Assembly (NCBI RefSeq): GCF_016595215.1
Contig: NZ_JAENHK010000010.1
Location: forward strand, 833,136-897,135
Length of the DNA: 64,000 bases
Direction: 5' to 3'
From: Chryseobacterium paridis
GTDB taxonomy: Bacteria > Bacteroidota > Bacteroidia > Flavobacteriales > Weeksellaceae
The position numbers and the translations under genes are program-made. Positions within the stretch are counted from its first letter, which is position 1. Each line of letters starts with the position of its first letter. Shown here piece after piece: positions 241-18,094 of this stretch. The notes below the pieces were generated by a model. The model was not told the origin of the DNA, searched no databases, and saw only the letters and a program-made list of their open reading frames with translations.

Positions 241-341
241 TAAAGCAAATCTACACGAGTTTTTTAACCACCAACCAAAGGTTCGACGTAGTCAAAAGTC
301 ACAAAAGTGTTAAACACTTTAGAACACGTAAGAAAGTTTAT

Positions 342-583: not shown

Positions 584-592
584 AATAGCCCC

Positions 593-1924: not shown

Positions 1925-1939
1925 ATCAATAGTTTGATT

Positions 1940-2250
1940 GTAAAGATAATAGGTTAATCGCAAAGGCGCTAAAATCTTCAAAACATTACGTCTTAAAGAT
2001 TTTTATTTTCGATGAAAATTTAAAGAAATCTGCATGATCTGCTCAATCCGCGAGAGCAAAAACAAAACGAAGAGATTAAAGCTCCCACAGATTTCACAAA
2101 TATCACAGATGATTATTATAAAGATACTTGATCAAACCAGCAGGAAAAAAGATCTGTGTAATCTGTGCAATCTGCGGGAAAAGAAATAAAAATTAGAATT
2201 CTCGCAGATTTTGCAGATAACGCAGATGATAATGATTAAAAAATAAAAAA
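1940..2250. repeat. Dispersed CACAGATT/AATCTGTG imperfect palindromes
   Basis: This stretch without a gene holds fragments of the 240-bp repeat (GGTTAATCGCAAAGGCGCTA, then CTGCATGATCTGCTCAATCC). Next come CCCACAGATTTCAC...TCACAGAT and, about 60 bp on, its near complement ATCTGTGTAATCTGTGC, then CTCGCAGATTTTGCAGATAA. Related words occur at 43265-43472 and 63619-63640. From 2250 to 2450 I see only AT-rich sequence. Confidence 0.7.
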
Positions 2251-2450
2251 TAGCTATTTAAAAATATAATCCAACTTCTCGATACGTTTTTTTCAAAACC
2301 TACTCGAAGTGACGAATCATTGTCTCCGTAATAAACCTGGCCGAAAATCTTTGATTTTCTTGCGCCTTAAAAACAACATCCTTAAAAAAACCTTTGTGCC
2401 TTTACGATTAACAAAAACTAATTATTAACATCACAATTGAAGCTGTTACA

Positions 2451-2500
2451 ATTCCCCTCCCTCGGAGGGGTGGCAAATCAAAGATTTGACGGGGTGGTAC
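2451..2500 (+). repeat. Two-hairpin dispersed repeat, copy A
   Basis: The element has hairpin CCCCTCC-ctc-GGAGGGG, then hairpin CAAATC-aaa-GATTTG, then GACGGGGTGG. An inverted-orientation copy lies at 12374-12422. Short GC-rich elements of this kind are spread through many flavobacterial chromosomes. It lies about 65 bp before the Rrf2 gene. Confidence 0.8.
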
Positions 2501-2563
2501 AAAACATTCCCCACTTGAAAAACATTTCATTAATAAAAGAAAATGTTATAACTTGCAGTCATT

Positions 2564-2980
2564 ATGATGTCCAAACGTTGCAAATATGCTTTAAAAGCAA
2601 TGGTCAGGTTAGCAAGAAATTACAATCAGGGCTTTCTTCCTACTTCTGTTATTGCACAAGATGAACATATTCCCAGAAAATTTTTAGAACAAATTCTTCT
2701 AGAATTAAAGAGAGTAAAACTTGTTAATAGTAAACAAGGGAAAGCAGGTGGATATTATTTGCTGAAATCTCCTGACGAAGTCTCTCTTGCTGACATTTAC
2801 CGGATTTTTGATGGACCTATAGCATTGGCTCCTTGTGTCTCTTTAAACTTTTATGAACCATGCGATGATTGTGTGGATGAAGAAACCTGCTACCTTAGAA
2901 AAGAGTTTATTATTGTAAGGGAGAAAACAAGAAAAAGCATGATGGAGGCCACTCTGACCACGTTTATGAAAAAAAGTTAG
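2564..2980 (+). CDS. Rrf2-family transcriptional regulator
   Basis: The 138-residue product has an N-terminal winged helix typical of Rrf2 (KYALKAMVRLA, then EQILLELKRVKLVNSKQGKAGGYYL). A Cys-rich segment follows at about residues 86-105 with four cysteines (APC, EPC, DDC, ETC). In IscR and NsrR such cysteines bind an Fe-S cluster; Rrf2 members such as CymR instead read cysteine status. The gene is directly upstream of cysH and in the same direction, so it is the likely regulator of the sulfur locus. The start is one of two adjacent ATGs. Ligand and target are inferred. Confidence 0.85.
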   Translation: MMSKRCKYALKAMVRLARNYNQGFLPTSVIAQDEHIPRKFLEQILLELKRVKLVNSKQGKAGGYYLLKSPDEVSLADIYRIFDGPIALAPCVSLNFYEPCDDCVDEETCYLRKEFIIVREKTRKSMMEATLTTFMKKS

Positions 2981-2998
2981 TTTTTTTAATTTTAAATA

Positions 2999-3013
2999 CT
3001 ACTAATTTGGTAG
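2999..3013. promoter_or_regulatory. Putative operator overlapping the cysH -33 box
   Basis: The sequence is CTAC, seven bases, then GTAG, with the -33 TTTG inside the spacer. A repressor bound here would block the promoter. The Rrf2 protein encoded just upstream is the obvious candidate; this is inference from position and symmetry. Confidence 0.4.
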
Positions 3014-3037
3014 GATTAATAGGATTATATATATTTG
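3006..3037 (+). promoter_or_regulatory. cysH operon promoter (Bacteroidota type)
   Basis: TTTG at 3006-3009 and TATATTTG at 3030-3037 are separated by exactly 20 bases, matching the TTTG-N19-21-TAnnTTTG consensus of the Bacteroidota housekeeping sigma factor. Transcription should begin near 3042-3045, just ahead of cysH. Confidence 0.75.
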
Positions 3038-3046
3038 CACAGATTA

Positions 3047-3772
3047 ATGTCAATGCAAATGGAAAATAGCCTTAAAATAGAATTCGATAAACTAGTGAAA
3101 GAAGCTTCTGAAACTCCCTTTCAGAAGGACTTTTTACAGATACTGGTAGAACGGTTTCCTAATGAGCTCATCTTTTCGACGAGCTTTAGTTATGAAGATC
3201 AGGTAATCACACATCTCATTAAAGATCTTAATGTTGATATTTTTACACTGGATACTGGACGACTTTTCGAACAGACCTATGAAACCTGGACTGCAACCAT
3301 AGCATTCTTCAAAAAAAATATTAAAGCATATTATCCCGACACCGAAGAAATAAGAGACTTCGTTTCACAAAACGGACCGGATTCATTTTACCAATCGGTC
3401 GAGCAGAGAAAGGCATGCTGTACGATCCGAAAAGTTCATCCTCTGAAAAAAGCGCTGCAAGGATATAAGGTATGGATCACCGGATTAAGATCAGAGCATT
3501 CTGCCAACAGACAAAATATGCCGCAGGTGGAATGGGATGAGGACAATCAGATCATTAAATTTCACCCAATCCTTCACTGGACGACAGAACAGGTAACGGA
3601 TTACGTAAAAACACATCATTTGCCTTACAATTATCTGCATAAAAAAGGATTTGTAAGTATTGGATGCGAACCCTGTACAAGAGCGATAAAAGAAGGAGAG
3701 GACTTCAGAGCAGGCCGATGGTGGTGGGAAGATGCCAACAAAAAAGAATGCGGATTACATATTCATCAATAA
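3047..3772 (+). CDS. cysH: Adenylylsulfate (APS/PAPS) reductase
   Basis: The enzyme reduces APS (or PAPS) to sulfite with thioredoxin. Visible features are the STSFSYEDQ nucleotide-binding loop, a CC pair (C124, C125), a CEPC pair (C207, C210) and the C-terminal ECGLH with the catalytic Cys. The CC plus CXXC pattern marks the [4Fe-4S] type that normally uses APS. No APS kinase gene is present here, which agrees. The start is one of three ATGs (3047, 3053, 3059); with a transcription start near 3043 the last would leave the longest leader. It is the first gene of the cys operon, and cysD follows after 11 bases. Confidence 0.93.
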   Translation: MSMQMENSLKIEFDKLVKEASETPFQKDFLQILVERFPNELIFSTSFSYEDQVITHLIKDLNVDIFTLDTGRLFEQTYETWTATIAFFKKNIKAYYPDTEEIRDFVSQNGPDSFYQSVEQRKACCTIRKVHPLKKALQGYKVWITGLRSEHSANRQNMPQVEWDEDNQIIKFHPILHWTTEQVTDYVKTHHLPYNYLHKKGFVSIGCEPCTRAIKEGEDFRAGRWWWEDANKKECGLHIHQ

Positions 3773-3783
3773 AAAAAGAACAC

Positions 3784-4692
3784 ATGTCAACATATCATTT
3801 AGATTATTTAGATCAGTTAGAAGCTGAATCCATTTACATTTTAAGAGAAGTAGCAGGACAATTTGAACGTCCGGCTCTTTTATTCAGCGGAGGAAAGGAC
3901 AGTATTGTACTGGCTCATCTGGCTTCAAAAGCATTTCGTCACGGAAAGATCCCTTTTACTTTTGTTCATGTAGATACTGGACATAACTTTCCGGAGGTTT
4001 TAACCTTTAGAGATCAACTCGTGCATCAACTGGAAGTAGACTTAGTAGTGCGTAAAGTGGAGGACACGATAAAAAAGAAAAGTCTAACAGAACCTAAAGG
4101 TAAATTTCCAAGCAGAAATTGGCTGCAGACCTATACATTGCTCGATACCATAGAAGAGTTTGAATTTGATTCCTGTATTGGAGGTGCTCGGAGAGATGAG
4201 GAAAAAGCCCGTGCAAAGGAGAGAATATTTTCTGTCAGAGATGAGTTTGGACAATGGGATCCTAAACTTCAACGTCCTGAGCTATGGAATATTTTCAATG
4301 GCAAAATTCATAAGGGTGAGAATGTAAGAATTTTCCCTATAAGCAACTGGACAGAACTGGATGTCTGGAATTATATCCGTAGAGAAAAAATCGCGCTGCC
4401 TTCTATTTACTTCTCGCACAATAGAGAAGTGGTGGATTTTAATGGTCAATGGATTGCCAATTCTCAACACGCTTCTCTGGAAGTCCATGATTTCGTAACC
4501 ACAAAAAAAATACGCTATCGTACCGTAGGTGATATGACATGCACTGCAGCAGTTGAATCTTATGCAGAAACAATAGACGCGGTTATTGAAGAGATTTCAG
4601 CAACCCGGATCTCTGAGCGTGGAGAAACCAGAATTGATGACAGGGTAACGGAAGCCGCTATGGAAGACCGTAAAAAAGGAGGATACTTTTAA
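3784..4692 (+). CDS. cysD: Sulfate adenylyltransferase subunit 2
   Basis: This is the catalytic subunit of ATP sulfurylase, which forms APS from sulfate and ATP with the GTPase CysN. The 302-residue protein carries the PP-loop SGGKDS at residues 35-40 and the conserved GGARRDEEKARAKER block. It begins at MSTYHLDYL; in-frame sequence upstream overlaps cysH and is not part of the family. It ends in the typical ATEAAMEDRKKGGYF-like tail. Second gene of the cys operon, 76 bases ahead of cysN. Confidence 0.96.
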   Translation: MSTYHLDYLDQLEAESIYILREVAGQFERPALLFSGGKDSIVLAHLASKAFRHGKIPFTFVHVDTGHNFPEVLTFRDQLVHQLEVDLVVRKVEDTIKKKSLTEPKGKFPSRNWLQTYTLLDTIEEFEFDSCIGGARRDEEKARAKERIFSVRDEFGQWDPKLQRPELWNIFNGKIHKGENVRIFPISNWTELDVWNYIRREKIALPSIYFSHNREVVDFNGQWIANSQHASLEVHDFVTTKKIRYRTVGDMTCTAAVESYAETIDAVIEEISATRISERGETRIDDRVTEAAMEDRKKGGYF

Positions 4693-4768
4693 TCAATGAT
4701 AAAAGATAATTGATCAATGATTAAGGCAGAATGTCATCAATTATTACTCATAACTCATAATTCAAAAA

Positions 4769-6007
4769 ATGGATATATTAAGATTTATAACAGCAGGAAG
4801 TGTGGATGATGGTAAAAGTACCCTTATCGGAAGACTGCTATACGATAGCAAAAGTATTTTACAGGATCAGCTGGAAGTACTTGAAAAACACTCTAAAAAT
4901 AAAAATGAAGACGGTGTTGATTTAGCACTTTTAACAGATGGTCTGCGTGCAGAAAGAGAACAGGGAATTACTATTGATGTAGCTTACAGATATTTTTCTA
5001 CACCCAGAAGAAAATTTATTATTGCAGATGCCCCCGGCCATGTACAATATACACGTAATATGATCACCGGAGCGTCTAATTCTGACTTGATGGTCATCCT
5101 GATCGACGCGAGAAAAGGAGTTATTGAACAGACAAGAAGGCACTCCATTATTGCGTCTTTACTACAATTAAAAAAGGTAGCCGTAGCTATTAACAAAATG
5201 GATATGGTAGATTATTCACAAGAAGTTTTTGAAACCATAAAAGCTGACTATTCAAAAATTGCTGAAGGACTGGGTTTGAAAGACGTGACTTATTTCCCTA
5301 TTTCAGCGCTTAAAGGAGATAACATTGTTTCTTTATCACCGAAGACAGATTGGTATGAAGGAGATTCTCTTCTGGACTATCTGGAACAGGTAAAATTGAA
5401 TGAGGAATTGAATAACGGAAGTCGTTTTCAGGTTCAGTATGTGATCCGTCCTCAAACAGAAGAATTACATGATTACAGAGGTTACGCGGGACAGATCTTA
5501 AGCGGTCAGTTTAAAAAAGGCGACAAAATTCATATACTTCCGGCAGGTTCAACCACTGAAATTGTTAAAATCGAAATCAATGGAGTAGAAAAGGAACAAG
5601 CCTTTGAAGGGCAGCCTGCAGTTATTCATATAGCCAACGATTTAGATATCAGCAGGGGAGATTTTTTCGCCACCGAAGAACAGCTTCCGGTTATTGAGAA
5701 AGATCTTGAGGTTCTGCTATGCTGGCTTGATCAAAAATCATTACAGCCTGGTAATAAATATATATTACAACAAAACAGCAGACTGGTAAAAGCAATTGTA
5801 AAAGAGGTGGACTACAAGATCAATGTAAATACTCTTGAACAGGAAAAGGCTGAAGGAGAAATTAAACTCAATGAGATTGTCAAAGTGACGCTTCGAACTG
5901 CACAACCCCTGGTGTACGATAGTTTTATCAATAATAAAAGAACAGGGTCTTCAATTTTAGTAGATGAGACCTCCAATTCAACAGTAGCAGCATGCATAAT
6001 TCAATAG
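4769..6007 (+). CDS. cysN: Sulfate adenylyltransferase subunit 1 (GTPase)
   Basis: This EF-Tu-like GTPase drives APS synthesis by CysD. The P-loop GSVDDGKS is at residues 10-17, the switch II DAPGHVQYTRNM and NKMD motifs follow, and two beta-barrel domains fill the rest. At 412 residues it is the CysN-only form: the APS kinase domain found in CysNC fusions is absent. That fits the [4Fe-4S] CysH upstream. cysE begins 3 bases after its stop, so the two are probably coupled in translation. Confidence 0.96.
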   Translation: MDILRFITAGSVDDGKSTLIGRLLYDSKSILQDQLEVLEKHSKNKNEDGVDLALLTDGLRAEREQGITIDVAYRYFSTPRRKFIIADAPGHVQYTRNMITGASNSDLMVILIDARKGVIEQTRRHSIIASLLQLKKVAVAINKMDMVDYSQEVFETIKADYSKIAEGLGLKDVTYFPISALKGDNIVSLSPKTDWYEGDSLLDYLEQVKLNEELNNGSRFQVQYVIRPQTEELHDYRGYAGQILSGQFKKGDKIHILPAGSTTEIVKIEINGVEKEQAFEGQPAVIHIANDLDISRGDFFATEEQLPVIEKDLEVLLCWLDQKSLQPGNKYILQQNSRLVKAIVKEVDYKINVNTLEQEKAEGEIKLNEIVKVTLRTAQPLVYDSFINNKRTGSSILVDETSNSTVAACIIQ

Positions 6008-6010
6008 AAA

Positions 6011-6841
6011 ATGACAGTTTCAAATAATTTAATTGACCGAATCCGTAATAACAAACAAAGTCATCCCCATCGTTTTTTTGATAAGGTAAAAGCAAAATAT
6101 TTCGTTACCGGATTGTATGAGGTACTTTTTCTTCCTGAAAAAGAAAATACAACAAATCAATTGGAGGGAAACTTTGCAAAATTGTATGGTGCTCTTTTTA
6201 GCCTGATAAACTGCATTACTGCAGATGAAGATCTTGCAGAAATACAAACGGATGCCTTTTTTAATGCATTGCCGGAAATCTATGATCAACTGATTCTGGA
6301 TTCAGTAGCTATTCTTGAATTTGATCCGGCAGCGGGTTCTCTGGAAGAAATACTTCTTGCATATCCTGGATATTTTGCAACCTATGTGTATCGTATTTCT
6401 CATCAGCTATGGAATCAGGAAGTGAAAATATTACCACGCGTCATTTCAGAATATGCACACAGCAAAACAGGAATTGATATCCATCCCGGAGCAGTGATCG
6501 GGGAGTATTTCTTTATTGATCACGGAACCGGAATTGTTATTGGTGAAACGGCAGTCATTGGGAATCATGTAAAAATATATCAGGGTGTGACCCTTGGGGC
6601 TTTAAATGTTTCTAAAGAAAAAGCCAATCAGAAAAGACATCCTAATATTGAGGATCATGTTACTATTTATTCCGGAGCGACCATTCTTGGAGGAAATACA
6701 ACAGTTGGCAAAGACAGTATTATCGGAGGAAATGTATGGATCACACAAAGTGTTCCTCCCAACTCTCTGGTTTATCATAAAAGTGAAATAAAAATAAAGG
6801 ATAACAACTCATTACCAGAATCTTTAACCTTTGTTATTTAA
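6011..6841 (+). CDS. cysE: Serine O-acetyltransferase
   Basis: It acetylates L-serine to O-acetylserine, the sulfide acceptor for cysteine synthase. The N-terminal helical domain is followed by a left-handed beta-helix (about residues 150-250) with the motifs GIDIHPGAVIGEYFFIDHG and YQGVTLGA...KRHPNIEDHV typical of EpsC/CysE. The length (276 residues) matches the longer N-terminus of Bacteroidota EpsC. It is tightly packed between cysN and cysK. Confidence 0.95.
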   Translation: MTVSNNLIDRIRNNKQSHPHRFFDKVKAKYFVTGLYEVLFLPEKENTTNQLEGNFAKLYGALFSLINCITADEDLAEIQTDAFFNALPEIYDQLILDSVAILEFDPAAGSLEEILLAYPGYFATYVYRISHQLWNQEVKILPRVISEYAHSKTGIDIHPGAVIGEYFFIDHGTGIVIGETAVIGNHVKIYQGVTLGALNVSKEKANQKRHPNIEDHVTIYSGATILGGNTTVGKDSIIGGNVWITQSVPPNSLVYHKSEIKIKDNNSLPESLTFVI

Positions 6842-6867
6842 AATAGAAAAATAAAAATTGTATTGGT

Positions 6868-7779
6868 ATGAAATTTCAGAACACATTAGAAACGATTGGG
6901 AATACGCCAGTCGTAAAAATTAACAAGCTTTTTAATTCAGATCATGAAGTCTGGATCAAGTTAGAAAAAAGCAATCCCGGAGGAAGCATCAAAGACAGAA
7001 TAGCATTAGCAATGATTGAGGATGCAGAAGCCAAAGGATTATTGAACAAAGACAGCACGATCATAGAACCTACCAGTGGAAATACAGGAATAGGACTTTC
7101 ATTGGTTGCTGCCGTAAAAGGATACAAACTTATTCTGGTAATGCCCGATAGTATGAGTATAGAGCGCCGTAAAATTATGGAAGCCTATGGAGCTCAATTT
7201 GTATTGACCCCAAGAGAAAAAGGGATGAAGGGTGCCATTGAAAAAGCTAATGAACTGGCACAGGAAACTCCAAATTCGTGGATCCCAAGACAGTTTGATA
7301 ATCCTGCCAATGTAAAGATTCACACCGAAACGACCGCAAAGGAAATAATAAAAGATTTTCCTGATGGCCTGGATTATGTGATCACAGGAGTAGGAACAGG
7401 GGGGCACATCACTGGAATTGCAAAAGTCTTGAAAGAGAAATATCCCAATATTAGAGTAATTGCAGTAGAACCAGAGTTATCCCCTGTATTGAGTGGAGGA
7501 AGTCCTGCACCTCATCCGTTACAAGGTTTAGGAGCTGGATTTGTCCCTTCTATATTAGATATAACCCTTTTAGATGGTGTTATTACTGTAGGTAAAGATG
7601 AAGCTTTTGAGTATACTTTAGATGCAGCAAAAAAAGAAGGCCTTTTCGTAGGAATTTCTACAGGAGCTGCACTGGCTGCCATAGCAAAACATTTACCCGA
7701 GATACAGCATGGTGCTAAAATTCTTACCATTAATTACGACACCGGCGAGAGGTATCTCTCCATTGAAGGGCTCTTCTAA
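6868..7779 (+). CDS. cysK: Cysteine synthase A (O-acetylserine sulfhydrylase)
   Basis: This PLP enzyme makes cysteine from O-acetylserine and sulfide. K42 in NPGGSIKDR is the Schiff-base lysine, TSGNTG binds substrate, and GTGGHITG binds the PLP phosphate. At 303 residues it is a full-length CysK; CysM activity cannot be excluded by eye. It follows cysE by 26 bases, so the O-acetylserine-forming and -using enzymes are made together. Confidence 0.95.
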
Positions 7780-7804
7780 ACTCTTTAACTAACACAGACT
7801 TTAA

Positions 7805-8650
7805 ATGAATACACATAATAAAGCACCCAAGGTTTATCTTATTGGTGCAGGACCCGGCAACCCAGATCTCATCACAGTAAAAGCGGTAAAAGCTATTGCT
7901 AAAGCGGATGTTATCTTATGCGACCGTCTTGTAAGTCCTGAGATTTTAGAGACGTATGTCAGTAAAAACGCAGAAGTTATTTATGTAGGTAAAGAATGCA
8001 GTAAGAATGCATCTACTCCTCAGTCGCTCATTAATATTTTAATGGTGGATTATGCCCGCCAAAATAAAACAGTGGTAAGACTTAAAGGAGGTGATGTATC
8101 TATATTTTCTAATATTCTGGATGAATTGCAGACTTTAAAAGAAAATCAAATCCCATTTGAAATTATCCCGGGAATTACTGCAGCCTTAGGAGCCGCAGCC
8201 TATGCAGGTATGCCTTTGACAGCCAGAGGATATGCTACATCAGTTCGTTTTCTTACTTATTATAAGTCTGAAATTCTAACCAATGATTATTGGAAAGAAC
8301 TTGCTGTGACCAATGATACTCTTGTATTTTATATGTCTAAAGGGAATCTTACAGCTCTCGTAGAGAAATTTATACAGCTAGATGTTTCAAGGGATAAAAA
8401 AATTGCCGTGATTGAACAGGCTACTACACCTTATCAAAAAGTGTATACCTCTTCTTTTAATGATTTTGCAGTAAAGTATGCAGATAAAACTTTTGCCTCT
8501 CCATCATTGGTAGTGATCGGTAAAGTAGTCAATCTGCATGAAGAATTTTCGTGGCTTCAAAATTCCGAAAACGAAGGTCTTTATTTTAAATCAGTTGAAA
8601 ATGGAAGCCTTATACAAAAAACTCAAAACTTCTTCGAATATGCTGTCTGA
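7805..8650 (+). CDS. cobA: Uroporphyrinogen-III C-methyltransferase
   Basis: It methylates uroporphyrinogen III twice to precorrin-2, the first committed step of sirohaem synthesis. The N-terminus YLIGAGPGNPDLITVKA and the VVRLKGGDVSIF motif are diagnostic of SUMT enzymes. The single-domain form (281 residues) lacks the dehydrogenase part of CysG, which is supplied by the fusion gene at 15376. The last codons overlap the start of cysJ. Confidence 0.93.
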   Translation: MNTHNKAPKVYLIGAGPGNPDLITVKAVKAIAKADVILCDRLVSPEILETYVSKNAEVIYVGKECSKNASTPQSLINILMVDYARQNKTVVRLKGGDVSIFSNILDELQTLKENQIPFEIIPGITAALGAAAYAGMPLTARGYATSVRFLTYYKSEILTNDYWKELAVTNDTLVFYMSKGNLTALVEKFIQLDVSRDKKIAVIEQATTPYQKVYTSSFNDFAVKYADKTFASPSLVVIGKVVNLHEEFSWLQNSENEGLYFKSVENGSLIQKTQNFFEYAV

Positions 8651-10349
8651 AAATAAATTGAAAATATTAAAACAAATATCTGATAACTTTTCCAGAGACG
8701 AATCCATCTGGGCAAGCGGATATTTAGCAGGTCTTGCAGGATCATCTTTTGCTGCAGTTCAGCCATCTCTGGCAATTGACAACACAGATCAGGTTGCGGT
8801 AAAGAAAATTACCCTTGCTTATGGTACAGAAACCGGAAACAGTAAAAAACTAGCTACAGGACTGGCGGGAATTATTAAGAAAAAAGGAATTCAGGTTAAG
8901 CTAGCCGATCTTTCACAATATAAGCCAAAAGATCTTGCTAAGGAAGAGTTTTTCTTTGTGATAATCAGTACGCAAGGGGAAGGAGATCCTCCTGTTCTTG
9001 CAAAGAAATTCTATGATTATATTTATGAGAACGAAATCAATCTCAGCAACCTCAAGTTTGGAGTTTTAGCGTTGGGAGACAGTAGCTATCCGCTATTCTG
9101 TAAAACGGGAGAAGATGTAGATTATCGTTTTGAAATATTGGGAGCTCAGCGTATCATTCCATTAAAAAAATGTGATGTAGATTATGAACAGGATGCCACC
9201 CATTGGATCGAACATGTTTTCGAAACAGTAAACAAGACCTCTGAGAATACAACAAAAAATATTTCAGCTCCAAAGGTTTCAAAGGGTAGAAAAAAGTATC
9301 AGGGAACCGTTTCCACTATTATTAATCTGAACGATATTACTTCTGATAAAGAAACCTATCACATAGAAATAGAAACGGAAGAAGCTCTTGTTTATAGCCC
9401 TGGAGCTGCTCTAGGCATAGTACCGATCAATTCAAGATCTGTGGTCGATGAAATTATTGAATTAACAGGGATTGATCCTGAAAAGGAAATTGAAACAGCA
9501 AGAGTAACCGCCAGTGTGCAAGAACTTTTATCCCAACATCTTAATATCAGCTATTTATTAAAGACTGTTGTAGCTCAGTATGCTCTGATCACGGGACATT
9601 CGATTCCGGAAGTTCGTTTAGGACTTCTTGATCTCCTTCGGATTTATCCGGTGAAAAATGCAGATGAATTTGAACAGATCATCACGGTGTTAACAGGACA
9701 ATCACCACGTCTGTATTCGATCTCTTCTTCTTTGGAGGCTCATGGAGATACTGAGATCCATATCACTGTTGCTAAATCAGAATTCCTGATTGACGACCAG
9801 AAACAGAATGGATTATGCAGTGGTTTCCTTAGTGAGTTCGCGGAGGGAGAAAGTATTGAGTTCTATATTCAGGAAGCAGGTCATTTCAGATTACCTGAAC
9901 AGGATAAAGATATTATTATGATTGGGCCGGGAACAGGAATTGCTCCTTTCCGATCATTTCTCTGGGAACGTGATGCAATAGGAGCGGAAGGCAGAAACTG
10001 GCTATTTTTCGGAGACCGGAACTTTGTATCAGATTTCCTTTATCAATCAGAACTTCAGGATTTTCTTAAAACAGGAGGTCTTACTCATTTAGACCTTGCT
10101 TTCTCCAGAGATACCGATGAAAAAATATATGTTCAGCATAAACTGGAACAAAAGGCGCAGGAAGTTTTTTACTGGCTTGAAGGAGGGGCATCAATCTACG
10201 TCTGTGGGACCAAAGAACCCATGAGCCGAGATGTTGAAGAAACCCTTCTGAATATTATCCAAAGTCAAGGAAAACGCAGTAAGGAGGATGCTATTAGCTA
10301 TCTGGAAGAAATGGAACTTAATGGCAGATACGCAAAAGATGTTTATTAA
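8640..10349 (+). CDS. cysJ: Sulfite reductase [NADPH] flavoprotein alpha subunit
   Basis: CysJ passes electrons from NADPH through FAD and FMN to CysI. The flavodoxin domain starts near residue 57 (TLAYGTETGNSKK), the FAD site is SPRLYSISSS, the NADPH region has GPGTGIAPFRSF, and the C-terminus is NGRYAKDVY. I chose the ATG at 8640, which overlaps the cobA stop by 11 bases and gives the usual N-terminal helix ending in WASGYLAGL. Earlier in-frame starts lie deep inside cobA. Confidence 0.94.
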   Translation: MLSENKLKILKQISDNFSRDESIWASGYLAGLAGSSFAAVQPSLAIDNTDQVAVKKITLAYGTETGNSKKLATGLAGIIKKKGIQVKLADLSQYKPKDLAKEEFFFVIISTQGEGDPPVLAKKFYDYIYENEINLSNLKFGVLALGDSSYPLFCKTGEDVDYRFEILGAQRIIPLKKCDVDYEQDATHWIEHVFETVNKTSENTTKNISAPKVSKGRKKYQGTVSTIINLNDITSDKETYHIEIETEEALVYSPGAALGIVPINSRSVVDEIIELTGIDPEKEIETARVTASVQELLSQHLNISYLLKTVVAQYALITGHSIPEVRLGLLDLLRIYPVKNADEFEQIITVLTGQSPRLYSISSSLEAHGDTEIHITVAKSEFLIDDQKQNGLCSGFLSEFAEGESIEFYIQEAGHFRLPEQDKDIIMIGPGTGIAPFRSFLWERDAIGAEGRNWLFFGDRNFVSDFLYQSELQDFLKTGGLTHLDLAFSRDTDEKIYVQHKLEQKAQEVFYWLEGGASIYVCGTKEPMSRDVEETLLNIIQSQGKRSKEDAISYLEEMELNGRYAKDVY

Positions 10350-10385
10350 ATCCCATTCGGAGTAATCGTAAAATAAAAAGAAATA

Positions 10386-12059
10386 ATGAGCAATAAAGAT
10401 AACCTTTCACCGGTAGAAAGAATTAAAACCGGGAGTAACGGACTCAGAGGAACCTTAAAGGAAAGCCTTTCCGATGATTTCACGGGAGCCATAAGAGAAG
10501 ATGACCAGACGCTGATCAAATTCCATGGAATGTATCAGCAGGATGACAGAGACAGAAGGGAAGAGCGGGTAGGTAAAAAGCTAGAATGGCTTTATTCCTA
10601 TATGATCCGGTTAAGACTCCCAGGTGGGTTTTTAACTTCTGAACAATGGTCAGGATTGAATGAAATTGCAGAAGACCATTCCACAGGAACCATAAAAATC
10701 ACAACAAGACAGACCATTCAGCTGCATGGTATTTTAAAATCCCATCTGAAGCCTACCATTCAGAGCTTCAATATTCAACATCTCGATTCTATTGCAGCAT
10801 GTGGCGATGTGAACAGAAATGTAACCTGTACTGCGAATCCTTCTGAATCTCCACTGCATCAACAGGCTTATGAATTGGCTGGTAAGATCAGTGAAATGTG
10901 TCTTCCGAAAACCAAGTCATATTACGATATCTGGATTGATGATGAATTGATTGTAGATAGAAAAACGGAAGAAGATCCTCTATATCAGGACAGGTATCTG
11001 CCAAGAAAACTGAAAATCGGAATTGCAGTTCCTCCCAATAATGATGTAGATGTATTCATCAACGATATTGCCCTTATTGCTATTATTGAAAATAATCAGA
11101 TTGTAGGGTATAATATTGCAGCAGGGGGAGGACTTGGAGCCACTCATGGAAACGAAGCGACCTATGCGCGTTTGGCATCAGTTCTTGGATTTGTAGACTC
11201 GGAAGAGAAAGCACTGAAAGCAGTATATGAAATTATAACTGTACAGCGCGACTTCGGAAACAGAAGTGACCGAAAGCTTTCCCGATTAAAATATACGATC
11301 GATAAACTGGGAATTGACGGATACAGAACTGAAGTTGAGAAAAGAACAGGATTTGCCTTTGAGACTGCCAGAGAATTTAAATTTGAACAAAGAAAAGACC
11401 GTTACGGGTGGATGCAAAATCATGAAGGAAAATGGTTTTATACGGTCTTCGTGGAGCATGGAAGAGTTCTTGACACCGACGAATATCCTTTAAAATCAGG
11501 ATTATTAAAGATTGCAGAATCCGGTAAAGTGAATTTCCGTTTTACCTGTAACCAAAATCTTATTCTTTCTGATATTAAAGAAGCTGATAAACCTCAAATT
11601 GAATCTCTCCTGAAAGAATTTGGAATTTCAGATTACACAGAGAAAGCAAGTGCCTTACGTAAAAATTCTGTTGCCTGTGTGGCATTAAATACTTGTTCAT
11701 TGGCTTTAGCAGAAGCACAGCGTTATCTGCCTTCTTTAGTGACAAAAATAGAACCTGTACTCGAAAAGTATGGCCTTCTTCAGGAAGATATAACCATCAG
11801 AATGACCGGATGTCCAAACGGCTGTGGAAGGTCTCCTAATGCTGAAATCGGTTTTGTAGGAACTGCGTATGGTAAATATAACCTTCACATCGGTGGAGAC
11901 AGATTAGGAATGCGCCTAAATACAAAATTTAAAGAAAATTTAGGTGAGGAAGAAATTCTTGAAACCTTGGATCAGCTTTTCGGGATATATGTACAGGAAA
12001 AACTGACTGAGGAAACGTTTGGTGATTTCTCATACCGTTATTTACAGAATTTAAATTAA
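10386..12059 (+). CDS. cysI: Sulfite reductase hemoprotein beta subunit
   Basis: CysI reduces sulfite to sulfide by six electrons using sirohaem and a [4Fe-4S] cluster. The cluster ligands are C431, C437 (CVALNTC), C476 and C480 (CPNGC), almost the same spacing as in E. coli. The N-terminal half has the ferredoxin-like repeats (GTIKITTRQTIQLHG, CGDVNRNVTCTANP). At 557 residues it is full length. It closes the cys operon. Confidence 0.96.
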   Translation: MSNKDNLSPVERIKTGSNGLRGTLKESLSDDFTGAIREDDQTLIKFHGMYQQDDRDRREERVGKKLEWLYSYMIRLRLPGGFLTSEQWSGLNEIAEDHSTGTIKITTRQTIQLHGILKSHLKPTIQSFNIQHLDSIAACGDVNRNVTCTANPSESPLHQQAYELAGKISEMCLPKTKSYYDIWIDDELIVDRKTEEDPLYQDRYLPRKLKIGIAVPPNNDVDVFINDIALIAIIENNQIVGYNIAAGGGLGATHGNEATYARLASVLGFVDSEEKALKAVYEIITVQRDFGNRSDRKLSRLKYTIDKLGIDGYRTEVEKRTGFAFETAREFKFEQRKDRYGWMQNHEGKWFYTVFVEHGRVLDTDEYPLKSGLLKIAESGKVNFRFTCNQNLILSDIKEADKPQIESLLKEFGISDYTEKASALRKNSVACVALNTCSLALAEAQRYLPSLVTKIEPVLEKYGLLQEDITIRMTGCPNGCGRSPNAEIGFVGTAYGKYNLHIGGDRLGMRLNTKFKENLGEEEILETLDQLFGIYVQEKLTEETFGDFSYRYLQNLN

Positions 12060-12063
12060 AAAT

Positions 12064-12190
12064 TAAACCACAAAAGTTAAAATAAACCACAAAAGTCACA
12101 AAAGCTTTATTTATAAACACTTTAGAGCACGTAAGCTGGTTTATAATAATAGCTAAAGTGTTAAAAACTTTTGTCCCTTTTGTGGTTGGA
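12064..12190. terminator. Long inverted repeat after cysI
   Basis: AACCACAAAAG words at 12065-12105 are matched by their complement CTTTTGTCCCTTTTGTGGTT at about 12168-12187. The pair forms a large imperfect stem that could end the cys transcript, although it lacks a clean T-run. The AAACACTTTAGA...CACGTAAG words inside also occur at 310-335, so this is also a dispersed repeat. Confidence 0.5.
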
Positions 12191-12275
12191 AAAAATAAAA
12201 ACTTAAATTGAAAATATGATAAAACTATTGTATCGTCGGAAAAAATTTAAAAAACATTGCCATTATCTTTCAGGT

Positions 12276-12299
12276 ATGCGAATGTGTATGTGTTGTTGA
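12276..12299 (+). CDS. Cysteine-rich leader peptide MRMCMCC
   Basis: This tiny frame reads Met-Arg-Met-Cys-Met-Cys-Cys-stop, so three of seven codons are Cys and three are Met. It lies 195 bases upstream of the TonB receptor and fusion gene of the sulfur locus. The composition is what a cysteine-responsive attenuation leader needs: ribosomes stall on the Cys codons when charged Cys-tRNA is scarce. A -7-like TATCTTTC at 12264-12271 would start the RNA almost at its ATG. That it is translated is inference. Confidence 0.6.
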   Translation: MRMCMCC

Positions 12300-12373
12300 T
12301 TGAAACAATAAATAACATTAAAACTGTTTAAACCCTATTAAAACTATTCAAAGGATTTTCTGAGTGTGTTATT

Positions 12374-12422
12374 GAAACACCCCGTCAAATCTTTGGTTGC
12401 CCACCCCTCAGAGGAGTGGAAT
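12374..12422 (-). repeat. Two-hairpin dispersed repeat, copy B (inverted)
   Basis: This is the reverse complement of the element at 2451-2500, with the second hairpin eroded. It lies between the Cys-rich leader frame and the TonB receptor gene. Its hairpin (CCACCCC...GGAGTGG) would be in the leader RNA and could act in attenuation. Confidence 0.8.
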
Positions 12423-12493
12423 GATAGGTACTTCTAATCTCCCTTATTCAAAAGTTTAAACAGAATCATTCGTATAACCTCAAAAAATGAAAA

Positions 12494-15379
12494 ATGAAAA
12501 ATATAAGGCAGAAATATTTTCTGCAAAAAACGGGTATTATAGTATTTACACTTTTATTTTTTAATCTGGCAGAAGCACAGCAACAGCTTATAGAATTAAG
12601 TGGAATCATCAAAAACACAGATACGCAAAAAGGGATTAATACTGCCAAAGTTCAGGTTGAAAATACGCAGGATACAGCATTAACCGATCAACAGGGAAAT
12701 TTTAAAATAAGAACGAGGGTTAAAATACCTTTTCGAATTGTTATTCATAAAGAAGGATTTATCGACCAGACGGTTGAAATACTATCATTATCTAATAAAA
12801 TAGCGATAGAACTCAACCCTCAGAATGCCATTATAGATGAAGTGGTTATTTCCGCTTCCAGAGTTCCTGAAAAGGTTCTAAGATCTCCTATAGCCATTGA
12901 AAAGATCGATATCAGAGCGATCCGGGAAAGTCCTGCTGCATCATTTTATGAAACATTAGAAAATGTAAAAGGGTTACAGCTTTTAACCTCAAGCCTTACG
13001 TTAAAAATCCCTAACTCCCGTGGCTTTAATTCACCGAATAATTTTCGCTTTATGCAATTGGTGGATGGGGTTGATGTACAGTCAGCTACCTTAGGAGTTC
13101 CATTAGGAAATGCTATAGGGCCAACGGAGCTGGATATCCAGTCTATGGAGGTAACTCCGGGTGCTGCATCAGCTCTTTACGGGATGAATGCCATTAATGG
13201 GCTCGCGAGTCTTCAAACCAAAGATCCGTTTACTACTGAAGGACTAAGTGTTTATTTCAGAGGGGGTGTCAATCATGTAGACAATGTGAACCACAAAATA
13301 TCTTCTTTGGGAGAAAGTGCTATACGATTTGCAAAGGTTTTAAATAAAAATCTGGCCATCAAAGTAAATGCCTCTTATTTTAGTGGAGTGGACTGGATAT
13401 CAAATAATCAGACCGATCAGAATGCCAATCCATTAATTACCGCCAATCCTAATTTTTCATTGCCGAATAATCCAGCGGAAGACCTTTGGAACAAATACGG
13501 AGACGAAAGAAACAATAGGGTAGCCGTAAAAGTGGACTATAATGGAAAGCCTACCACATTTAATGTATCAAGAACAGGATATCTTGAAAAAGATCTGGTA
13601 AGCCCGGAGGTGAAAAATATAAAATTTGATGCCGGATTATATTATCGTTTTGGAGACCAATGGAGAGCATCCTATGTGTATCGTTATGGATTACTGGATG
13701 GGACTTTCCAGAGAGGAAATAAGATCAGACTGCAAAATGCAACGGTTCAAAATCATAAAGTAGAACTGACGGGTAGGGAACTTACTTTCAGAGCATATGT
13801 ATCTATTGAAAATACAGGAGACTCTTACAATTTAAAACCTTTGGCCGATAATCTGGATCTGACCAATCTGTCCAACAACAACTGGAGAAATATATTTCAA
13901 TCCGCTTTGCAAAATAGTATTAATTCTGGTGTCAACCTGAATGATGCATTTATCCTCGCAAGACAGGAAGCAGATAAAAATAGAGTAGTTCCCGGAACCT
14001 ATGCTTTTGACCAGTTAAAGAATACCATTATCGGAATCAATAATTGGGATTCTGCAAACGGGGGAGTTGCCGGAGCTCCGGCAACAGGAGGGGCTAAGCT
14101 TGAACAGAAATCACGCTTTTACCAGGGCGAGCTCACCTACGACTTCAGCAGGTTTGTAAAAATATTCAACCTACTTGCAGGTATTGATTATCGTTTGTAC
14201 AGCATAACCCCTGATGGAAATAATTTCGTTGATTTTGACAGACCGGTTAAAGAAAGAAATATTCCTTTATCCAATGGTACTTTCGGTAAAGATGTTATTT
14301 ATCAGAAATATGGTGCTTTTGCTCAGATCACCAAGCTTTTCTTTGATGATAAATTAAAACTTAATGTTGCCCTGCGCGTTGACCGAAATCCTGAATTCGA
14401 AGCCAAAGTGAATCCAAGAATAAGTATTGTATATTCCCCTGTCAATCAACATAATTTCAGGGCTTCTTTTCAAAACGGATACCGTTTCCCATCCCTTTTT
14501 GAAGCACTTTCTTTCGTCAATAACGGAAACGTACGAAGAGTAGGTGGACTTTCAAAAGTGAATGAAGGATTGGGTTATCTGGATAATTCATATACACTGG
14601 CATCACTTGACAAATTTACTTCTGCTGTGAATGCAGATGTTGATGGAGGGAAAAGTCCAAACCAGGCTGCATTAGACAATAAGAATCTTTTGGCTGTTGC
14701 CAATCTTCAAAAGCTTCAGCCTGAAAAAATCAATTCATTTGAAGTAGGGTATAAGTCCGTTTTCTTTAATAGCAAGCTGGTGTTGGATTGGGATTTTTAT
14801 TATAATATATATGAAGGGTTTCTGGGCCAGGTAGAAGTAGCTGTTCCTAAAAATGGTAAAGTAGGAAGCGAGAGTGCTGTTTTGGATATGATCGATCGCA
14901 GTAAGCAGGATCGTTATAGAGTATATACCAACAGTAACAGTACCTACAAAAGCTACGGAACGTCATTAGGTGTCCGTTATAACATTGTAAAAAACTATAA
15001 TATCAATGCCAATATCTCTTATAATGATCTGGCATCCAACAATAATTCTGATTTGTTTATCACCTCTTTCAACACTCCAAAATGGATGGTTAATGTAAGT
15101 GTAGGAAACAGAGAGATCATCAAGAATATTGGGTTTACCCTCGTTGCAAGATGGCAGAACAATTTCTTATGGGAAAGTCCTTTGGCTTCGGGGAAAATTC
15201 CAGCTTACTATACAATAGATGCTCAGGCAACGTGGAAGCTTCCTGAAATCAATGCAAATGTAAAAATAGGGGCTACCAACTTACTTAATCGCCGATATTT
15301 TCAGTATGCAGCAGGTCCTGAAATCGGTGGTCTGTATTATCTTACTTTTACCTATGATCTAAAATTATCGTCAAAATGA
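12494..15379 (+). CDS. TonB-dependent outer-membrane receptor of the sulfur locus
   Basis: The 961-residue product has a signal peptide (cut near AEAQQQ), a carboxypeptidase-like regulatory domain (about 30-115), a plug domain opened by DEVVISASRVPEKVLRSP, and a large beta barrel ending in an aromatic-rich YYLTFTYDLKLSSK strand. It imports an unknown ligand using TonB energy. Its stop overlaps the next start as ATGA, so it is coupled to the sirohaem dehydrogenase/TauE fusion, which points to a sulfur compound or sulfur-containing chelate as substrate. The substrate is inferred from context only. An earlier ATG at 12487 is out of frame. Confidence 0.9.
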   Translation: MKNIRQKYFLQKTGIIVFTLLFFNLAEAQQQLIELSGIIKNTDTQKGINTAKVQVENTQDTALTDQQGNFKIRTRVKIPFRIVIHKEGFIDQTVEILSLSNKIAIELNPQNAIIDEVVISASRVPEKVLRSPIAIEKIDIRAIRESPAASFYETLENVKGLQLLTSSLTLKIPNSRGFNSPNNFRFMQLVDGVDVQSATLGVPLGNAIGPTELDIQSMEVTPGAASALYGMNAINGLASLQTKDPFTTEGLSVYFRGGVNHVDNVNHKISSLGESAIRFAKVLNKNLAIKVNASYFSGVDWISNNQTDQNANPLITANPNFSLPNNPAEDLWNKYGDERNNRVAVKVDYNGKPTTFNVSRTGYLEKDLVSPEVKNIKFDAGLYYRFGDQWRASYVYRYGLLDGTFQRGNKIRLQNATVQNHKVELTGRELTFRAYVSIENTGDSYNLKPLADNLDLTNLSNNNWRNIFQSALQNSINSGVNLNDAFILARQEADKNRVVPGTYAFDQLKNTIIGINNWDSANGGVAGAPATGGAKLEQKSRFYQGELTYDFSRFVKIFNLLAGIDYRLYSITPDGNNFVDFDRPVKERNIPLSNGTFGKDVIYQKYGAFAQITKLFFDDKLKLNVALRVDRNPEFEAKVNPRISIVYSPVNQHNFRASFQNGYRFPSLFEALSFVNNGNVRRVGGLSKVNEGLGYLDNSYTLASLDKFTSAVNADVDGGKSPNQAALDNKNLLAVANLQKLQPEKINSFEVGYKSVFFNSKLVLDWDFYYNIYEGFLGQVEVAVPKNGKVGSESAVLDMIDRSKQDRYRVYTNSNSTYKSYGTSLGVRYNIVKNYNINANISYNDLASNNNSDLFITSFNTPKWMVNVSVGNREIIKNIGFTLVARWQNNFLWESPLASGKIPAYYTIDAQATWKLPEINANVKIGATNLLNRRYFQYAAGPEIGGLYYLTFTYDLKLSSK

Positions 15380-16896
15380 GTAATTCCCTATATCCCATAT
15401 TTCTAAAGCTCGAAAAATTACCATTATTAGTCATTGGTGGTGGTAAAATAGCGCTTGAAAAATTAGAATCAGTGCTTGGTAATTCACCGAAAACCTCCGT
15501 AAAGCTGGTAGCAATAGAAATTATCCCGGAGATTAGATCATTGGAAACCCAGTATCCCAATTTAACCTTATACGAAAGAGCTTACGAGGATTCTGATTTC
15601 AGCAATATAGACGTAGCTATTATAGCAGTAAATGATATTACATTAGCTGAGCAGATCCGTGACAAAGCACATCTTAATAATGTATTGGTAAATATTGCCG
15701 ATAAACCGGATCTGTGTGATTTCTATTTAGGATCTATTGTAAAAAAAGGAAGTCTGAAAATTGCCATTTCAACGAATGGAAAATCCCCAACTATCGCAAA
15801 GAGATTACGGGAAATTCTTACCGAAACCATCCCTGATGAAATGGATGATGTATTGGAGAATATGCAGAATATCCGCAATCAGCTAAAAGGAGATTTCAAC
15901 TACAAAGTCCAGGAGCTGAACCGGGTAACCACAGAATATCTGGATGAAGGAAAAAGGAACTCCTCAAAATCAGATCTTGAAATAGAAAAGCTCATCAATA
16001 TTACCAAAATAGCTCAAAGACGGGCGAATATCTATTTGGCCATAATAGGCGTTTTAATTCTTTTTGGAGTGTTGGGAATTATCATTTACCAGTTCAATCT
16101 ATCAGATGACATTCAGGTTTTTCTTAGTAAAGATGGACATATTTTTTACTGGATGCTGCTTGCTGGATTTTTAGCGGAAATTGTCGCAGGTTCTATGGGA
16201 ATGGGATATGGAGTCATATGTACAACGATACTTTTATTGCTTAACGTGCCACCACCAGTCGTGAGTGCCAGCATTCACTCTGCAGAATCCTTTACAACAG
16301 CAGCCGGAAGTTTTAGCCATTATAAATTAGGAAACGTTAATAAGAAAATGGTTCTCGTATTATTCCCACTGGCAATAGCGGGTTCTGTGATCGGGGCATT
16401 AACGCTATCTCATTACGGCGAATATTATGCACATATTGTAAAGCCTATTATCGCATGTTATACTTTGTATCTTGGATTAAATATTCTTAAAAATGCTTTC
16501 AAAGAAAAAAGAGCCAATCAGGTAAAAACAAAAAAAAGAACAAATCTTAGGGTCTTGGGACTTGTGGGTGGTTTTATTGATTCTTTTGCTGGAGGAGGAT
16601 GGGGTCCTCTGGTTACCGGAACATTGATCAAAGAGGGGAGAATTCCCCGTTATGTTGTGGGAAGCTCTACTGTTGCCAAATTTTTGCTTACCATCACCAG
16701 CGCAGTCACTTTTATTTTTACCATTGGTATTCACCACTGGAATATTGTATTAGGTCTTTTACTGGGTGGGGTTTTCACCGCTCCTTTTTCAGCCATGCTG
16801 ACCTCCAAACTGCCGACAAAGAAAATGTTTGTAGTGGTGGGCGTAGTGGTTAGTATAATGAGCCTTATCACGATTGTAAAATCCATTATATCATAA
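15376..16896 (+). CDS. Precorrin-2 dehydrogenase / TauE-SafE permease fusion
   Basis: This 506-residue protein joins two functions. Residues 1 to about 200 match the N-terminal part of sirohaem synthase (LLVIGGGKIALEKL NAD site, DFYLGSIVKKG, STNGKSP), which oxidises precorrin-2. Residues about 218-506 are a TauE/SafE (TSUP) membrane domain with roughly eight hydrophobic segments and the repeated motifs AEIVAGSMGMGYG and GFIDSFAGGGWGP. TSUP proteins move sulfite, sulfate or organosulfonates. With cobA upstream, the dehydrogenase half completes sirohaem for CysI; the permease half probably moves a sulfur oxyanion. Transport direction is not known. Confidence 0.9.
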   Translation: MSNSLYPIFLKLEKLPLLVIGGGKIALEKLESVLGNSPKTSVKLVAIEIIPEIRSLETQYPNLTLYERAYEDSDFSNIDVAIIAVNDITLAEQIRDKAHLNNVLVNIADKPDLCDFYLGSIVKKGSLKIAISTNGKSPTIAKRLREILTETIPDEMDDVLENMQNIRNQLKGDFNYKVQELNRVTTEYLDEGKRNSSKSDLEIEKLINITKIAQRRANIYLAIIGVLILFGVLGIIIYQFNLSDDIQVFLSKDGHIFYWMLLAGFLAEIVAGSMGMGYGVICTTILLLLNVPPPVVSASIHSAESFTTAAGSFSHYKLGNVNKKMVLVLFPLAIAGSVIGALTLSHYGEYYAHIVKPIIACYTLYLGLNILKNAFKEKRANQVKTKKRTNLRVLGLVGGFIDSFAGGGWGPLVTGTLIKEGRIPRYVVGSSTVAKFLLTITSAVTFIFTIGIHHWNIVLGLLLGGVFTAPFSAMLTSKLPTKKMFVVVGVVVSIMSLITIVKSIIS

Positions 16897-16983
16897 GAAT
16901 CATTATGGTCGCTAATAGGCATAAGTTGCTATCAATTAGTATTTTATTTTAAATTTTAATTAAAAACTAGTCATATTTTTTAT

Positions 16984-16991
16984 TATATTTG
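16984..16991 (+). promoter_or_regulatory. -7 promoter element (TATATTTG)
   Basis: A perfect TAnnTTTG element 23 bases before the ATG of the Cys-rich leader peptide gene. No clear TTTG is seen 20 bases upstream, so this is a partial promoter match. Confidence 0.5.
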
Positions 16992-17014
16992 ATTAATAAC
17001 TTAAAAAAACTACT

Positions 17015-17203
17015 ATGAAATCACATCTTAAAAATCTAAGTTCATTAGACAGAAAACAAATGAAATCAATCAATGGGGGCCGCATTCCTTGTCCTGCTAA
17101 TAATGACTGTGGAGCAGGGAACTGTTGCATAGCCGGAGCATGTCACCCGATCTCTGACGCAGGGCCTAAGTATGGCTTATGTACTGCTATAATCTTGGAT
17201 TAA
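17015..17203 (+). CDS. Double-glycine leader peptide, six-Cys knottin-like core
   Basis: The 62-residue precursor has a leader MKSHLKNLSSLDRKQMKSIN ending in GG, the form cut by peptidase-containing ABC transporters. The core holds six cysteines in the order C-X5-C-X4-CC-X4-C-X12-C. This is the C-C-CC-C-C framework of inhibitor cystine knots. Related leaders occur at 22096 and 27783. No modification enzyme or exporter lies nearby. Secretion and a bacteriocin-like role are inferred; the fold is suggested by Cys spacing alone. Confidence 0.8.
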   Translation: MKSHLKNLSSLDRKQMKSINGGRIPCPANNDCGAGNCCIAGACHPISDAGPKYGLCTAIILD

Positions 17204-17225
17204 AATAAACAATCAGCACATAATT

Positions 17226-17254
17226 TTTCCCTCCATTGTTAAAATGGAGGGAAA
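17226..17254 (+). terminator. Hairpin terminator of the six-Cys peptide gene
   Basis: TTTCCCTCCATT and AATGGAGGGAAA form a 12-bp perfect stem with a 5-base loop. It lies 23 bases after the peptide stop codon and is followed by T-rich sequence. Confidence 0.8.
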
Positions 17255-17303
17255 TTTATTTTATGATTAACAAATTAGAGTGAAAGGGGTTTATACAGAT
17301 ATT

Positions 17304-18094
17304 TTATTCTGTCCAAAGATGTCCGGCAGAATAGGTCTTTGCTTTTCCTGCAATGATGACCCGCTCATTTTGATCTTCACAATATAACTTTCCAAGTCTT
17401 TCGGAGAGCTGCATTGCAAACATATCCTTTTTACCCAGTCTTTCTGACCAGAAAGGAATCAGTGAACAATGAGCAGAACCCGTTACCGGATCTTCCAGAA
17501 TGCTGGATTGTGAGGTAAAATATCTGGAAACAAAATCACTCCCATTTCCTTTCGCAGTTACAATCACACCACCTGGATCCAAATTGATGAGATCAAAGGT
17601 TGCTCGGTCAATTTTGATATTTCTTATTTCATCTTCTGTATCATATACCAAAACATAATCTCTTGATTGAAATACTTCTTTTGGCTGAATATTCAATGAT
17701 TTTGAAATAATTTCAGGCAATACAGAGGGTAATGGCATCCTTGAAGGAAAATCAAGATAATACAATCCATCCTTAAAGCTTACCTTCAATTCGCCACTTT
17801 TGGTTTCAAAAATAATTTCATTGCTTTTATAATTTAAAATTGAAATCAAACAATGAGCTGTTGCCAGGGTAGCATGTCCGCATAGAGATCCATCTCAATT
17901 TCAGGGGTAAACCACCGGAGATGTATTGTTGAACCATTTTCGATAAAAAATGCTGTTTCAGCCACCGCATTTTCCCTGGTAATTTTTAGAAGGGTTTCAT
18001 CAGGAAGCCATTCTTTTAAGGGGACTACACAGGCAGGATTTCCTCTGAAAAGTTCATCTGTAAATGCGTCTATCTGGTATAATTCTAATTTCAT
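17304..18094 (-). pseudogene. PhzF-family isomerase gene broken by a 2-bp frameshift
   Basis: The first part reads QIDAFTDELFRGNPACVVPL and LRWFTPEIEMDL, the second part resumes with a full PhzF C-terminal half (LEDPVTGSAHCSL). Between them the coding strand reads GATCTCTATGCGGACAT, where GATCTATGCGGACAT would give the expected DLCGH. A CT duplication (AGAG at 17884-17887 on the plus strand) explains the break, and in the other frame HATLATAHCLIS follows. The intact protein would be about 262 residues, normal for PhzF. It is either a recent pseudogene or a sequencing error; both halves are otherwise undamaged. Confidence 0.85.

Follow-up and report, generated by a model that had tools for sequence, protein, structure and literature searches.

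Does the short, cysteine-rich open reading frame ahead of a TonB-dependent receptor gene in Chryseobacterium paridis control that receptor and, if so, by what means? The frame lies in a 64,000-nt stretch of genomic DNA (the window), in the 434-nt gap between cysI, which encodes the sulfite reductase haemoprotein (10386-12059, + strand; NCBIfam TIGR02041 at 743 bits, just under cut-off; PRK13504 at 741 bits), and the receptor gene, here TonB1 (12494-15379, + strand; Pfam Plug and TonB_dep_Rec_b-barrel), its presumed target. The next gene in the operon (15376-16896, + strand) encodes a fusion of the N-terminal part of sirohaem synthase with a TauE/SafE exporter (Pfam TauE, NAD_binding_7 and Sirohm_synth_M). 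Genes for cysD, a uroporphyrinogen-III methyltransferase and cysJ, named by family search, and for an Rrf2-like regulator, cysH, cysN, cysE and cysK, named by eye, run in the same direction 5' of cysI, and TonB1 lies within this sulfate-assimilation operon.

A sequence-only reading of the gap had picked out ATG CGA ATG TGT ATG TGT TGT TGA at 12276-12299 (+ strand) as a seven-codon, Cys-rich leader frame with a -7-like box directly ahead. The codons are there as read, but the frame stays open up to an ATG at 12216, giving a leader ORF of 27 codons (12216-12299, + strand; MIKLLYRRKKFKKHCHYLSGMRMCMCC) of which the earlier frame is the last seven codons and the stop. Among 40 distinct related loci (36 from Chryseobacterium and four from Elizabethkingia), an ATG stands 22 codons ahead of MCMCC in 37 and 18 or 21 codons ahead in the other three, while the seven-codon ATG, two codons ahead of MCMCC, occurs in only three (the window, L031 and L048). 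The supposed -7 box directly ahead of it, TATCTTTC, is without the last G of TAnnTTTG, the consensus printed in the accessible part of PMC9723704, and is absent there in aligned relatives. We therefore rejected a seven-codon gene with its own box, its start being restricted to 3/40 loci and the box not kept, and the sequence gives no sign of a promoter directly ahead of the 12276 frame. The original observation is real, and was cut too short.

We determined how far the leader is kept, and with which receptor. A DNA search of 59 related genomes picked up the leader region, its top matches being 74-78% identical, amid many hits to dispersed repeats. The pattern MCMCC was found in 32 of 197 genomes of the family, preceding a TonB1-type receptor in 28, only another TonB receptor in three, and lying within an unrelated frame in one. 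A receptor search located the TonB1-type receptor in 32/197 family genomes, namely the 28 with MCMCC and four more, whose leaders read RMCICC (G192), RMCVCC (G220), RMCFCC (G195) and RMGICC (G226). The leader is thus present in 32/32 receptor-bearing genomes, 31 of them with Cys-x-Cys-Cys and one with two Cys; a close receptor is missing from 20 of the 22 genomes of the genus that lack MCMCC, including G035, which encodes a 45% identical protein. Across receptor-bearing genomes the codon between the Cys codons is Met, Ile, Val or Phe, and methionine as the signal was rejected on this ground, since Ile, Val and Phe take the place of the middle Met in the leaders of G192, G220 and G195 respectively, and G226 has Ile there.

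In the window the three Cys codons (12285-12287, 12291-12293 and 12294-12296, + strand) surround one Met codon. For 37 loci (three of the 40, without ATG at codon 1, were dropped), pN/pS was 0.02 in RMCMCC (codons 22-27) compared with 0.68 in codons 2-21, a pattern that indicates strong purifying selection confined to RMCMCC within the leader. Synonymous TGT/TGC swaps occur at each of the three Cys positions in these loci, with no other variation in the Cys codons, and the Arg codon before MCMCC is CGA in 37/37, as expected if the RNA itself were also constrained. Three Cys codons in so short a frame had been considered very unlikely by chance; scanned for ATG frames no longer than 30 codons and containing at least three Cys, the 64-kb window gave 13, ten of them elsewhere than the leader. 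The feature that exceeds chance is conservation, because Cys-x-Cys-Cys is retained in all but one receptor-bearing genome while synonymous changes are seen at all three Cys. The sequence-only reading had named absence of the frame from close relatives as a refutation; on this check the Cys codons speak for the reading, and the ATG that it chose speaks against it.

The ORF might alternatively specify a small protein acting in trans, its position before TonB1 being secondary, and the 27-codon length, Tyr 6 and Lys 9-10 are indeed fairly well kept in the 37 loci. We consider this highly improbable given the pN/pS outside RMCMCC, a stretch after MCMCC that is variable or absent among relatives, and leaders at other genes that have only the Cys run in common.

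The distances to the neighbouring genes vary. The leader start is only a few nucleotides from the cysI stop in most relatives; in the window a dispersed repeat (12083-12201; many matches in its own and related genomes, most relatives being without it at this place) separates the two, and a second (12367-12422; several matches in its own and related genomes) lies between leader and TonB1. The repeats flank the leader on both sides and leave the pairing arms described below unbroken. The window ORF accordingly begins 156 nt from cysI and its stop is 194 nt from TonB1, as against approximately 13-40 nt from leader stop to receptor start, and 63-69 nt from MCMCC to receptor start, in compact forms, where so little separates the leader stop from the receptor start that re-initiation might play a part. 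These distances bear on simple translational coupling, by which the ORF would relay ribosomes from cysI to TonB1 and sense nothing, the Cys run mattering otherwise. The close start after cysI in most relatives and the short spacing in compact forms would suit such a relay, yet in the window both distances are long, and coupling leaves unaccounted for the kept Cys codons and the Cys runs before metY and other genes; we regard it as improbable.

The constraint on the Cys end of the leader coincides with a predicted RNA pairing. In relatives, the sequence leading up to and including the first Cys codon can base-pair with a stretch just 5' of the receptor start, typical arms being TTTTAGG..GAATG with CATTC..CCTAAAA and, in L003, TTTTAAGT with ACTTAAAA. 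The minimum free energy (MFE) fold of the window pairs 12276-12284 with 12467-12475, 12273-12275 with 12477-12479 and 12268-12272 with 12495-12499, the last reaching the start codon (12494-12496), so that a 5' arm at 12268-12284 would sequester a 3' arm and the TonB1 start region at 12467-12499 (+ strand). The fold also holds a local hairpin that takes in the last Cys codons and joins 12290-12297 to 12311-12318 (+ strand), and a 10-bp helix of 12324-12333 (CTGTTTAAAC) with 12454-12463 (GTTTAAACAG; + strand, pair probabilities 0.97-1.0), which encloses a variable insert and for which relatives have, by eye, matching arms of other letters.

Arms were compared by duplex energies, and not by MAFFT alignment, consensus fold or pair counts, because the long MAFFT alignment misplaces the 3' arm. 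The window arm duplex was better than 200/200 shuffles (z -4.65), and at most 10/200 shuffles reached the observed value in 31/40 loci. Pairing was near the shuffle level in the other nine (z -0.14 to -1.73), comprising L021, L031, L043 and L048, which are compact forms, L046 and the four Elizabethkingia loci. When arms were exchanged among the 36 Chryseobacterium loci (Elizabethkingia was left out of this test), own arms averaged -15.9 kcal/mol versus -14.0 kcal/mol for swapped arms, with 0/5000 permutations as good, a result that relatedness inflates. The whole window fold was modest (z -1.96; 8/200 shuffles as good). The conserved ORF, its kept Cys codons, and the predicted pairing with its position follow from these comparisons and calculations.

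We then modelled a stalled ribosome by masking 31 nt with the ribosome at the first Cys codon and computing the openness of the receptor start region. Mean openness rose from 0.47 to 0.65 and increased in 40/40 loci, a count inflated by relatedness, with a gain exceeding 0.15 in 27/40; a control ribosome placed 45 nt upstream gave a mean of 0.49. A control position opened the start as much as the Cys position in L009 (early and late) and in L053 (late). In the window, openness was 0.44 free and 0.70 with the ribosome on the first Cys codon, and as the ribosome was moved along the leader it stayed at 0.67-0.71 for A-site positions 12258-12286, then was 0.44 at 12300 (stop). Two loci found later and tested apart from the 40 behaved differently: L295 opened (0.56 to 0.73), and L149, whose RMGICC has lost the first Cys, showed no opening (0.68 and 0.68), bringing the overall count to 41/42 loci.

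Together, the drift of the remaining leader around kept Cys codons, the presence of the motif at other sulfur genes and the pairing with the receptor start support a cysteine-sensing leader, and translational attenuation is favoured because a ribosome on the Cys codons opens the receptor start in the model and intrinsic terminators are missing between leader and TonB1 in 40/40 loci. We therefore think it probable, on modelled structures, that leader and TonB1 form a cysteine-responsive translational attenuator. With ample cysteine, ribosomes would complete the 27-codon leader and depart, and the vacated mRNA would fold back on the TonB1 start region, yielding little receptor. When charged Cys-tRNA is short, a ribosome would pause at the Cys codons (12285-12296) and cover the 5' arm, freeing the 3' arm, which lies next to and within the receptor start, and the receptor would be translated. 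That ribosomes pause there, which way expression responds and that cysteine is what is sensed are inferences. Near-shuffle pairing in 9/40 loci, the modest whole fold and the failure of L149 to open speak against the attenuator, as do the control positions that open the start equally in L009 and L053 and the chance of re-initiation in compact forms. The sequence-only reading, which had proposed a cysteine-sensing leader attenuator, is correct about the type of control and mistaken about its particulars: the sensing leader is upheld by the kept Cys codons, the motif before other sulfur genes and the RNA pairing, while the leader has 27 codons and not seven, is without sign of its own promoter, and appears to act on translation and not by classical transcriptional attenuation.

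The same Cys leader might instead control termination, intrinsic or Rho-dependent, before TonB1. In its favour, Rho-dependent termination has been proposed for mycobacterial cys leaders in the accessible part of PMC1262725, and an intrinsic terminator accompanies 8/15 sulfur-type leaders found by pattern elsewhere in the class (0.1 expected), namely L061, L062, L073, L084, L091, L099, L101 and L112, which precede genes for aldo-keto reductase, PAPS reductase, sulfite/nitrite reductase and metY. The identical scan found an intrinsic terminator at TonB1 in 0/40 loci, however, and was taken to exclude one there; the compact forms, moreover, place MCMCC only 63-69 nt from the receptor start. Termination control at TonB1 is thus unlikely, in our estimate, though less so than coupling. 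A known riboswitch at TonB1 was ruled out, Rfam giving no match at 12059-12494 at gathering score in a search of the whole window, nor at E up to 1 in a search of 1-17500. The window does hold a DUF805 RNA motif (RF03081, 72 bits) at 22935-23004, just before a gene at 23015.

We also looked for Cys-run leaders at other sulfur genes of the class. In a motif-independent sample of 22 metY-family genes, drawn from 20/99 genomes of the class (including L146, which is below the family cut-off and has a misplaced start), a Cys-run mini-ORF lay within 450 nt upstream of 12/22, one of them a doubtful peptide (L140), where shuffles would lead one to expect 0.44 and the reverse strand gave none. With Rfam run on 20/22 of these loci, a SAM riboswitch was found upstream in 7 of the 12 with a Cys leader, the leader beginning close behind it. 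Two genes of the set recur under other labels (L135 is the L089 gene, L134 the L113 gene). A pattern search of the class gave 55 places in 49/395 genomes against 10 in the backward control, as counted from the listing. Thirteen precede metY (7), genes with a sulfite/nitrite-reductase domain (4), PAPS reductase (1) or cysE (1, a peptide of five residues only), three precede aldo-keto reductase (2) or peroxiredoxin (1) genes, two are the TonB leaders of C. paridis itself, and 37 are chance-like or unclassed, with L098 and L103 looking leader-like. The metY and other downstream proteins were identified partly by family search and otherwise named by likeness. A scan of named genomes gave at least 119 stretches, of which 80 were listed; among the 44 listed matches outside Chryseobacterium and Elizabethkingia, six precede metY-like genes and one a TonB receptor. 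Five Methylobacter records (L213, L214, L235, L239 and L185) carry a short RMCICCW frame, in each case 71 nt before a similar gene; the frame could be a further leader or simply coding sequence that the records have in common.

Control at some biosynthetic genes may take another form. In the stalled-ribosome model, little or no opening was obtained for metY leaders (7/7) and sulfite-reductase leaders (4/4). In nine loci we compared the post-Cys segment with a terminator-like arm (those of L084 and L102 placed by eye): 0-1 of 500 shuffles did as well in four and 14-37 of 500 in five, a predicted pairing that is clear in 4/9 and weak in five. Terminators can explain some of the metY and sulfite-reductase leaders for which no opening is modelled; six metY leaders (L065, L089, L105, L106, L107 and L113) showed neither terminator nor modelled opening.

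A second Cys leader in the C. paridis genome, of 42 residues and ending SMCMCCCS, precedes another TonB receptor (TonB2). Here (L045:1253-1522) a SAM-I/IV riboswitch is followed by the Cys-run leader ORF and then the receptor, an order found in 4/4 TonB2-type loci covered (L045, L038, L041 and L047), and the stalled-ribosome model opens the receptor start in all four. The SAM riboswitch RF00162 with a close Cys-run leader behind it was also noted before metY-family genes at L125, L126, L130, L132, L133, L136 and L142, and further at L065, L105, L106 and L107. In Parapedobacter koreensis (L216), outside the Weeksellaceae genera studied, a leader ending RMCMCCCH stands 103 nt before a TonB receptor gene at 6198 (Plug, CarbopepD_reg_2).

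We lean, with less assurance than for TonB1 itself, towards a class-wide cysteine regulon of Bacteroidota that works through Cys-codon leaders, acting on transcription (by terminators) at a subset of biosynthetic genes and on translation at TonB receptors, with a SAM and cysteine two-input gate at many metY and TonB2 loci. The class-wide leader set and its coupling with SAM riboswitches is the most interesting part of this analysis. If true, it would provide a testable, protein-free rule by which Bacteroidota tune sulfur uptake and synthesis, would join riboswitch and leader-peptide sensing on one transcript, and suggests two TonB receptors, TonB1 and TonB2, that serve sulfur supply; such small ORFs are found by the Cys run alone, making the set easy to extend. 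Leader peptides of Bacteroidota are mentioned in general terms only in the accessible parts of PMC9723704 and PMC7366714, the former giving strong indications that leader peptides attenuate amino-acid operons in Flavobacterium psychrophilum, with no mention of cysteine there, the latter mentioning leader-like sORFs in Bacteroides. In searches of the open-access literature, covered for the most part by title and opening of the abstract, we recognised no cysteine leader in Bacteroidota; the supplement of PMC9723704 may hold some. In 2010, according to the accessible part of PMC2965389, its authors knew leader-peptide systems only in Proteobacteria and Actinobacteria, besides ermC and their own finding in Firmicutes.

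CruR of Bordetella, a copper-responsive uORF before the TonB transporter gene bfrG, resembles the TonB1 leader in containing Cys residues and in preceding a gene for a TonB-dependent transporter, and differs in having DUF2946, a CXXC and a RAPP arrest motif and in acting through Rho, as described in the accessible part of PMC9426467. A metal-sensing nascent peptide of this kind could be read from the Met/Cys-rich end, the Cys-x-x-Cys spacing (codons 24 and 27) and the TonB gene downstream. The window and L002 peptides, however, give no Pfam match at E up to 1 and hence no DUF2946, the window peptide is without proline and so without the RAPP stall motif, and the same Cys runs also stand before metY and before the genes for sulfite reductase and PAPS reductase; a CruR-type copper uORF was accordingly rejected, and copper sensing is as remote a prospect as a trans-acting product.

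From its sequence and modelled structure, the TonB1 leader resembles a translational attenuator based on a cysteine leader peptide. It has the kept run of codons for one amino acid that characterizes amino-acid leader attenuators and, in the predicted structure, the pairing of the next start with the stretch beneath a paused ribosome that characterizes translational ones, weakly so in 9/40 loci. Systems of the ermC type use a ribosome that pauses in a leader ORF and so exposes the start region of the gene that follows, and the TonB1 model is alike in this respect. Tandem arrangements of a SAM riboswitch and a second sensor form two-input leaders; TonB2 and several metY leaders are alike in placing SAM riboswitch and Cys leader in series, the difference being that the second sensor is a leader peptide and not a second aptamer, and TonB1 is without a riboswitch match. 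ermC senses a slowdown of translation without amino-acid specificity (in part from the accessible portion of PMC2965389), whereas the likely sensor of the TonB1 leader is a codon run for one amino acid.

The closest parallels on the sensing side are the mycobacterial polycysteine ORFs. A 2005 study (PMC1262725, accessible part) predicted, ahead of mycobacterial cys operons, leader ORFs that carry Cys-codon runs close to the stop and are not accompanied by terminators, and cysteine-dependent attenuation by polycysteine ORFs in M. smegmatis was attributed to Canestrari et al. 2020 in the accessible part of PMC9031893; in that of PMC9094748, this work appears in the reference list only. As far as these partial texts go (PMC1262725, PMC9031893), the mycobacterial ORFs share with the TonB1 leader the Cys run near the stop, the sulfur genes downstream and the lack of intrinsic terminators; their attenuation, which makes elongation dependent on cysteine, would be a further likeness. 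They are leaderless and belong to Actinobacteria, whereas the TonB1 leader has another sequence and lies inside an operon, its start a few nucleotides after cysI in most relatives speaking against a leaderless transcript. What sets the TonB1 leader apart from them is its presumed target, a TonB receptor, and its predicted pairing with the start region of the next gene.
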